This document shows, piece by piece, positions 14,349-42,233 of a DNA stretch of 64,000 nt (its first letter is position 1; each line of letters starts with the position of its first letter). The stretch comes from Clostridiales bacterium (lineage in GTDB: Bacteria > Bacillota > Clostridia > Christensenellales > UBA1242). Where the stretch lies: contig CAKJYJ010000003.1 in the NCBI GenBank assembly GCA_918262735.1, forward strand, positions 334,883 to 398,882, given 5' to 3'. Both the position numbers and the translations under genes were made by a program. The notes under the pieces were generated by a model. It saw only the letters and a list, made by a program, of their open reading frames with translations, did no database searches and had not been told where the DNA came from.

Positions 14349-14423
14349 TCCTCAGTAGCTCAGCGGTGGAGCAACCGGCTGTTAACCGGTAGGTCGTCCG
14401 TTCGAACCGGACCTGGGGAGCCA
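14349..14423 (+). tRNA. tRNA-Asn (GTT)
   Basis: The 7-bp acceptor stem (14349-14355 with 14413-14419, one G-T pair), anticodon arm ACCGG/CCGGT with loop CTGTTAA (anticodon GTT at 14381-14383) and T arm GTCCG-TTCGAAC-CGGAC all fold. The discriminator is G, and CCA is encoded at 14421-14423. Confidence 0.97.
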
Positions 14424-14424
14424 C

Positions 14425-14453
14425 AAAAAGACTTCAAACAGAAGTCTTTTTTT
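14425..14453 (+). terminator. terminator of tRNA-Asn
   Basis: AAAAAGACTTC pairs with GAAGTCTTTTT around AAACA, and the T run ends at 14452. A near copy with the tRNA tail recurs at 14617-14661. Confidence 0.9.
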
Positions 14454-14661
14454 TGTTACCAGTTCGGTTCGAAGTTGCAAATATGCAACAAACAGCTTTT
14501 GCTGTTCGGACGACCACGTCCGTTCGCTTCCTGTCGGAGCCAGACCGCAAACAAGTTGCTCCCGTTCGCTTCCTAAAAACAGTCCACTGGACTATTTTAT
14601 TCACGGGCTCACCCACACCTGGGGAGCCAAAAAAAGACTTCGAGCAGAAGTCTTTTTTTTT
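14454..14661 (+). repeat. hairpin-rich element ending in a copy of the tRNA-Asn 3' end and terminator
   Basis: The 13 bases of the tRNA-Asn 3' end (14411-14423) recur exactly at 14617-14629, followed by a near-identical terminator (AAAAAGACTTC-GAG-CAGAAGTCTT and T's). The interval is visibly GC-richer than its surroundings and holds several small perfect hairpins: GTTGC/GCAAC, AACAGC/GCTGTT, CGGACG/CGTCCG, AGTCCA/TGGACT and GGCT/AGCC. It also has two copies of CCGTTCGCTTCCT. There is no credible coding. It may be a remnant of insertion at the tRNA 3' end or a structured RNA. Confidence 0.65.
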
Positions 14662-41758: not shown

Positions 41759-41845
41759 GCTGATGTGGCGGAATCGGCAGACGCAAGGGACTTAAAATCC
41801 CTCGGTAGCAATACCGTGCCGGTTCAAGTCCGGCCATCAGCACCA
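41759..41845 (+). tRNA. tRNA-Leu (TAA)
   Basis: Acceptor GCTGATG/CATCAGC, anticodon arm AGGGA/TCCCT with loop CTTAAAA (anticodon TAA), a long variable arm (CTCGGTAGCAATACCGT) typical of class II tRNAs, and encoded CCA at 41843-41845. Confidence 0.97.
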
Positions 41846-41850
41846 GAAAA

Positions 41851-41876
41851 AAACAAGATGAATTCTTGTTTTTTTT
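41851..41876 (+). terminator. terminator of the tRNA cluster
   Basis: AAACAAGA (41851-41858) pairs with TCTTGTTT (41864-41871), followed by T's to 41876. Confidence 0.88.
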
Positions 41877-42194
41877 GTGCCTTTTATCAAAGGCACTGTT
41901 AGAATTGTCATTCTAACCTGTTGCCTATCAGCGTTCGCTTCGCTCTCTGAACAGCACCAGAAACACTTTTGATATAGTTGTTTTTTTTTGACTTTCTTAT
42001 TCAGCACGGTTAGAATTGTTATTCTAACCTCTGGTGCCTATTACGAGGAGCAATGAGGCAAGCACAATGCCATCGGCTTTGTATTTGCCTAGGTGCGACG
42101 ACGCTAAAATCATTTATGTTTTTGAATAAATGTTATCAGCGCTCATTTCATTCGCTGAACATCACTCAGAAAGCAAGGTCATCTTGCTTTTTTT
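41877..42194 (+). repeat. hairpin-rich repeat array downstream of tRNA-Leu
   Basis: Two degenerate units. The 12-base tRNA-Leu tail CAGCACCAGAAA (41838-41849) recurs exactly at 41952-41963 before a weak hairpin and T9, and in degraded form at 42160-42172 before a good hairpin (AAGCAAG/CTTGCTT) and T run. A 21-base hairpin (GTTAGAATTGTCATTCTAACC) at 41898-41918 recurs with one change at 42009-42029. TATCAGCG followed by CTGAACA recurs at 41926/41947 and 42134/42155. Further perfect stems are GTGCCTTT/AAAGGCAC (41877-41896) and, imperfectly, AGGCAA/TTGCCT near 42056-42091. No coding is evident. Confidence 0.7.
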
Positions 42195-42219: not shown

Positions 42220-42233
42220 CCCCCCCCCCCGGG
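42220..42233 (+). repeat. 11-C homopolymer followed by GGG
   Basis: Eleven C's (42220-42230) then GGG, flanked by TTAAG and CTTAA so the block can fold back. It is intergenic. Very unusual in a sequence this AT-rich; the exact length may be a sequencing estimate. Confidence 0.8.

Follow-up and report, generated by a model that had tools for sequence, protein, structure and literature searches.

Two tandem units behind tRNA-Leu(taa)

The window, a 64,000-nucleotide stretch of DNA from a Clostridiales gut bacterium with a small genome (G000), contains a cluster of tRNA genes in the order Gly-Cys-Leu. The last of these, tRNA-Leu(taa) (41759 to 41845, plus strand; ARAGORN and Rfam RF00005), has the 3' end CATCAGCACCA. 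The approximately 350 bp on its 3' side hold two tandem units, in each of which hairpins and a TATCAGCG...CTGAA block are accompanied by a duplicate of the tRNA 3' end. No ORF of at least 80 amino acids lies wholly inside this array (41846 to 42194). Rfam searches with gathering and permissive thresholds (E ≤ 1 at the Leu and Thr loci, E ≤ 0.5 at the other arrays) returned, apart from tRNAs, only a handful of chance matches below threshold.

Unit 1 (41846 to 41951), delimited from the sequence, its repeats and an alignment with the tRNA-Thr units described below, lies on the plus strand, like all other features of the array. It opens with a trailer that carries an AT-rich, terminator-like hairpin (41847 to 41875), followed by a GTGCC hairpin (41877 to 41896) and the 21-nt hairpin GTTAGAATTGTCATTCTAACC (41898 to 41918). 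Next come CTGTTGC (41918 to 41924), an imperfect reverse complement of the tRNA-Leu tail, and ATCAGC with a 19-nt insert, GTTCGCTTCGCTCTCTGAA (41933 to 41951). Unit 2 (41952 to 42159) starts with the first copy of the tRNA-Leu tail, CAGCACCAGAAA (41952 to 41963), and keeps the order of unit 1. It comprises a weak hairpin and T run (41963 to 41990), the second 21-nt hairpin (42009 to 42029), TCTGGTGC (42030 to 42037), which is the exact reverse complement of the tRNA-Leu tail, about 95 bp of additional hairpin sequence and the second TATCAGCG...CTGAA block. The array closes (42160 to 42194) with another copy of the tail, now decayed (CATCACTCAGAAAG), and then the hairpin AAGCAAG...CTTGCTT and a T run.

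An earlier, sequence-only reading of this interval had listed the tail copy at 41952 and its degraded counterpart at 42160, the repeated 21-base hairpin and the paired blocks, all of which were recovered. The two hairpins lie 111 bp apart and agree at 20 of 21 positions, and the TATCAGCG...CTGAACA blocks span 41926 to 41953 and 42134 to 42161. The reverse complement TCTGGTGC and a second case in the window, behind tRNA-Asn (14424 to 14629), are additions to that account. Of the proposed terminators, the middle one (41963 to 41990) has only its weak hairpin in front of the T run, and a rule for GC-rich terminators calls none of the three. The high density of hairpins was borne out on both strands, where the array folds far beyond chance (DNA z = -9.6 on the plus strand and -10.3 on the minus strand; RNA z = -7.5). 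Just 3' of the array, a run of approximately 10 to 11 C residues (42222 to 42232) stands in AT-rich surroundings.

The orthologous Gly-Cys-Leu locus was compared across relatives. In the congener G002, the site holds a plain terminator and the array is absent. In other genera, it is occupied by different inserts: G027 has another palindromic element (core B, see below), and G005, G016, G023, and G028 carry further ones, all unrelated to the Leu array and each ending in its own genome's Leu tail. Given the empty site and the different inserts elsewhere, the Leu array is probably recent and the site has probably been hit repeatedly. This supports the view, proposed from the sequence alone, that the tRNA end underwent insertion or duplication in series.

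Host-tailored repeats at other tRNA genes

The Leu array is not a local oddity. A genome-wide search with the 28-base motif TATCAGCG...CTGAACA, allowing up to three mismatches, yielded six matches with at most two mismatches each. Two are those of the Leu array and four lie behind tRNA-Thr(ggt), and the reversed control gave none. The repeats are thus present elsewhere in the genome; their absence had been named as an argument for simple local duplication. The four units behind tRNA-Thr(ggt) share the layout of the Leu units; they start with CACTGGAGCT, the reverse complement of the tRNA-Thr tail, and end in that tail, CAGCTCCA. A third case of this layout was found behind tRNA-Thr(cgt) in G080, which belongs to another genus. 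The 19-nt core of this Leu/Thr family was detected in only 2 of 147 genomes.

Whole tandem units also occur at other tRNAs, and many tRNAs are affected across the genome. The last 14 nt of each tRNA were sought within 1 kb downstream, with the tail of another tRNA as a control, and a second scan used a 12-nt version with a shuffle control. In G000, 10 tRNAs have a clean copy of their own tail in this range, compared to 1 for the control. The diverged arrays of Leu(taa) and Thr(ggt) come in addition to these 10, and about one-third of the tRNA genes of this genome adjoin such hairpin repeats. Own-tail copies were found at 8 of 36 tRNAs in G141 (control, 0) and at 1 of 32 in G024; the outgroup-family genome G036 has none at its 37 tRNAs (control, 2). 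Near-perfect tandem units that include trailer and terminator follow tRNAs for Glu (three units), Arg, Lys, and Met. Contig C13 terminates within such an array, as do several contigs of relatives.

Copies of the tRNA 5' part were observed upstream of tRNAs as well, three in G000 and six in G141. Upstream of tRNA-Lys(ctt) (L211, G000:C9:36115-36440) and tRNA-Ser(gct) (L210), the arrangement is a mirror image, in which the leader and the 5' part of the tRNA are duplicated and a core B-like element and an inverted tRNA arm lie between the copies.

Across relatives, 69 distinct units at 22 tRNA types were collected, with a median length of 178 bp (range, 76 to 390 bp). The duplications that flank them are derived from the tRNA and variable in length. 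The right-hand copy measures 13 to 73 nt, and its start peaks at 16, 25, and 47 nt from the 3' end, corresponding to the 3' strand of the T stem, the T loop, and the anticodon arm, respectively. In the part to the left of the tail copy, the longest reverse-complement match to the unit's own tRNA has a median of 11 nt, against a mean of 6.3 nt for other tRNAs (69 units; Wilcoxon p 5e-13). With this reverse complement on the left and the tail copy on the right, each unit amounts to a fold-back of host-tRNA sequence around a core.

The tRNA-Asn unit and core B

The second host tRNA of the window, tRNA-Asn(gtt) (14349 to 14423, plus strand), is followed on the same strand by a 206-bp unit (14424 to 14629) that ends in the tRNA's own tail, ACCTGGGGAGCCA, after which comes a second copy of the terminator. 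Within this unit lies the palindromic element core B (14525 to 14613, plus strand; model R1, 89.8 bits, E 2.6e-21), with the consensus TCCTGTCGGAGCC-GACCGC..GCTCCCGGCTTTGGCTAAAAAC..GTTTTCTTAACGCGTCGCC. Of 118 genomes from the family, 25 carry core B, as do 89 of 297 from the order. In a collection of 84,980 species, it was found in 59 stretches, nearly all from gut Clostridia/Christensenellales assemblies. Within this family, 39 of the 44 testable copies lie no more than 700 bp from a tRNA, against an expectation of about 3%.

One core B of G000 sits inside the T loop of a partial copy of tRNA-Ser located 5.1 kb away from its intact counterpart. In G349 and G247, from other families of the order, core B is located away from tRNAs within larger palindromic repeats, and in G349 an un-inserted version of the palindrome adjoins the one that carries B. 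Core B is therefore an insert in its own right, one that nests in palindromic sequences, among them the arms of tRNAs. In G349, G247, and G355, all from other families of the order, large dispersed families of palindromic intergenic repeats of the CCTCCCTTTCACAAGGGAGG type contain core B inserts (L191 to L202). At another locus (L120, G012:C10, near 1516 to 1777), core B forms a naked, nearly exact 100-bp tandem repeat that has no tRNA pieces and runs to the contig end. Integron cassettes, raised as a candidate by the dispersed copies in G247, were rejected, since no consistent genes lie between the copies and B sits inside larger palindromes. Viral contigs scanned with the B pattern gave one match, to a GC-rich sequence unrelated to the element.

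The stems of core B covary (alifold, -36.5 versus -11.4 ± 2.7 for shuffled alignments). This covariation, together with the position of 34 of the 39 tRNA-linked copies on the strand of the tRNA, would fit arrays that encode structured small RNAs with tRNA-like ends, which would be freed from transcripts reading through the tRNA and serve as decoys or regulators. The RtT RNA of Escherichia coli does come off tRNA operon transcripts (PMC4986893). However, G-U pairs make up only 7 of the 1,258 standard pairs of core B, compared to 121 of 2,352 in the acceptor and T stems of tRNAs at the same loci, a roughly ninefold scarcity that was measured on a single family of related, non-independent sequences. 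As folding on both strands or in single-stranded DNA avoids G-T pairs and RNA need not, this points to DNA folding over RNA folding. Moreover, the Leu array departs further from chance when folded as DNA than when folded as RNA, terminator-like sequences stand between units, Rfam has no match, and core B also occurs away from tRNAs and sometimes opposite the tRNA strand. Tail-bearing small RNAs, which the sequence-only reading had offered as its second option, are therefore unsupported and considered quite unlikely. We infer that the DNA fold, rather than an RNA, is what matters for these elements.

Origin of the arrays

The explanation we favor, at a probability of about 0.6, is that a non-coding palindromic DNA element associated with tRNAs was inserted at tRNA arms and multiplied by palindrome-prone duplication, the Leu interval being a small array of it. 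It draws on the anatomy of the arrays, their specificity for their own tRNA, the recurrence across tRNAs and genera, the empty and occupied orthologous sites, and the presence of core B in non-tRNA palindromes. The elements would be short REP/MITE-like hairpins from several families, with cores of approximately 20 to 110 bp, that insert at the T loop, anticodon loop, D loop or acceptor end of tRNA genes. The tRNA itself would stay intact, and part of its sequence would be duplicated beyond the insert, namely, the 3' part and trailer on the downstream side or the leader and 5' part on the upstream side. The copied arm would often be present in both orientations, creating a fold-back unit. Tandem multiplication of these units would follow, with template switching or slippage at the palindromes and the repeated tRNA tails as the probable route, and their loops would gather further insertions. 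Insertion combined with palindrome-driven template switching would explain the inverted and direct arm copies as well as the tandem growth; the units were presumably made in this way, and the array presumably has no gene product. Against this explanation, searches for a mobilizing enzyme showed no Y1/RAYT transposase in G000 and most carriers, and the tyrosine recombinases of G000 lie near other tRNAs. Ends that match the host tRNA are also atypical for an ordinary MITE and call for an extra copying step, the evidence from core B bears only indirectly on the Leu/Thr family, and the scarcity of G-T pairs comes from one family of related sequences. A bolder version, in which active, gene-less DNA hairpin elements of a new class target tRNA arms, copy the target arm in both orientations into their ends, and re-insert or amplify in cis as arrays, is offered tentatively and seems somewhat unlikely.

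The break points at the anticodon loop, T loop, and 3' end coincide with points that are generally known to be used by integrases, which would suit remnants of ordinary elements integrated into tRNAs by tyrosine or large serine integrases. The tail copies would then be old attR sites and the units collapsed or minimal elements. Larger occupied cases, namely, a 5.1-kb interval at tRNA-Ser(tga) and a locus with a 510-aa serine recombinase (both described below), fit the same idea. However, it would have to account for dozens of independent units of 76 to 390 bp, which are far too short for an integrase gene and leave no coding room, unlike a classical integration site. Random collapse should not yield conserved palindromic cores either, and standard integration leaves neither reverse-complement arms nor upstream 5' copies. 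In addition, the tyrosine recombinases that a general PF00589 search detected in G000 lie near the tRNAs Thr(cgt), Arg(tcg), and Arg(cct), all of which are without a clean own-3'-tail array. Remnants of this type are considered unlikely. A third alternative, in which nothing is mobile and replication slips at tRNA hairpins to duplicate sequence in place, could produce the near-perfect units with trailer and terminator at Glu, Arg, Lys, and Met and the naked core B tandem. It is weakened by the recurrence of shared cores at different tRNAs, in different genera, and at non-tRNA sites, is refuted for core B by the clean insertion in the partial tRNA-Ser copy, and is regarded as improbable overall.

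The closest precedent is found in E. coli, where tandem non-coding repeats lie directly behind the tRNA gene tyrT, each with the 3' end of that tRNA. These repeats have long been regarded as an oddity. The units described here likewise sit behind a tRNA gene and contain its 3' end, but the RtT family (RF00391) has no match among them, at the gathering threshold or at E ≤ 1 (Leu and Thr loci) and E ≤ 0.5 (other arrays). They also differ in involving many tRNAs of one genome and several recurring cores in another phylum, and in having tRNA-customized reverse-complement arms and upstream 5' copies. For the cores, REP-type palindromes are the nearest kind. Like REP/BIME and MITE sequences, core B is short, non-coding, palindromic, nested, and present in multiple copies and genomes. 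Unlike them, it is almost confined to tRNA genes in this family and its units end in host-tRNA sequence. The title of a 2006 paper by Tobes & Pareja, which PMC8040213 cites, names REPs as insertion targets. Mobilization by a RAYT/IS200 enzyme was considered and is unsupported, as the Y1/RAYT transposase profile PF01797 has no match in G000 or most carriers (14 of the 17 genomes lack it). With integron cassette arrays (attC hairpins), the units share imperfect DNA palindromes in tandem, but those on the tRNA side are gene-less and their arrays grow at tRNA genes. In the open-access literature, which was the part searched and excludes most subscription journals, no earlier description of tRNA-tailored hairpin repeats was found.

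A lineage with self-tailored fold-back repeats at up to one-third of its tRNA genes provides dozens of natural replicates. These allow questions to be asked about the origin of tRNA-end duplications, the single-strand recombination of DNA hairpins, and their tolerance in genomes of 1 to 1.3 Mb. The arrays also account for some of the contig breaks and "structured RNA" calls met with in assemblies of gut metagenomes.

Integration in bacteria targets tRNA genes more often than any other site. Elements integrated there (integrase-bearing elements, PICIs, and tycheposons) resemble the units in having the intact tRNA on one side, an attR-like fragment on the other, and breaks in tRNA loops; unlike them, the units are gene-less, tandem, and equipped with fold-back arms, with no integrase gene inside. 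Cargo was suspected between distant tail copies at one locus (L171), but these copies are chance matches. The 5.1-kb interval of G000 (L216, G000:C3:324740-330050) extends from tRNA-Ser(tga) to a partial copy that starts at its anticodon loop and contains a few genes, including those for a repeat-rich secreted protein and an XRE-type membrane protein. It resembles an old integrated element, with core B having later entered at its far end. At L175 (3263 to 6650), a copy of the tRNA-Ser tail marks the end of the gene for the 510-aa serine recombinase. It is followed by two B units, also with tRNA-Ser tails, and a 290-aa ORF is enclosed between them. Conventional integrating elements seem to share these tRNA sites.
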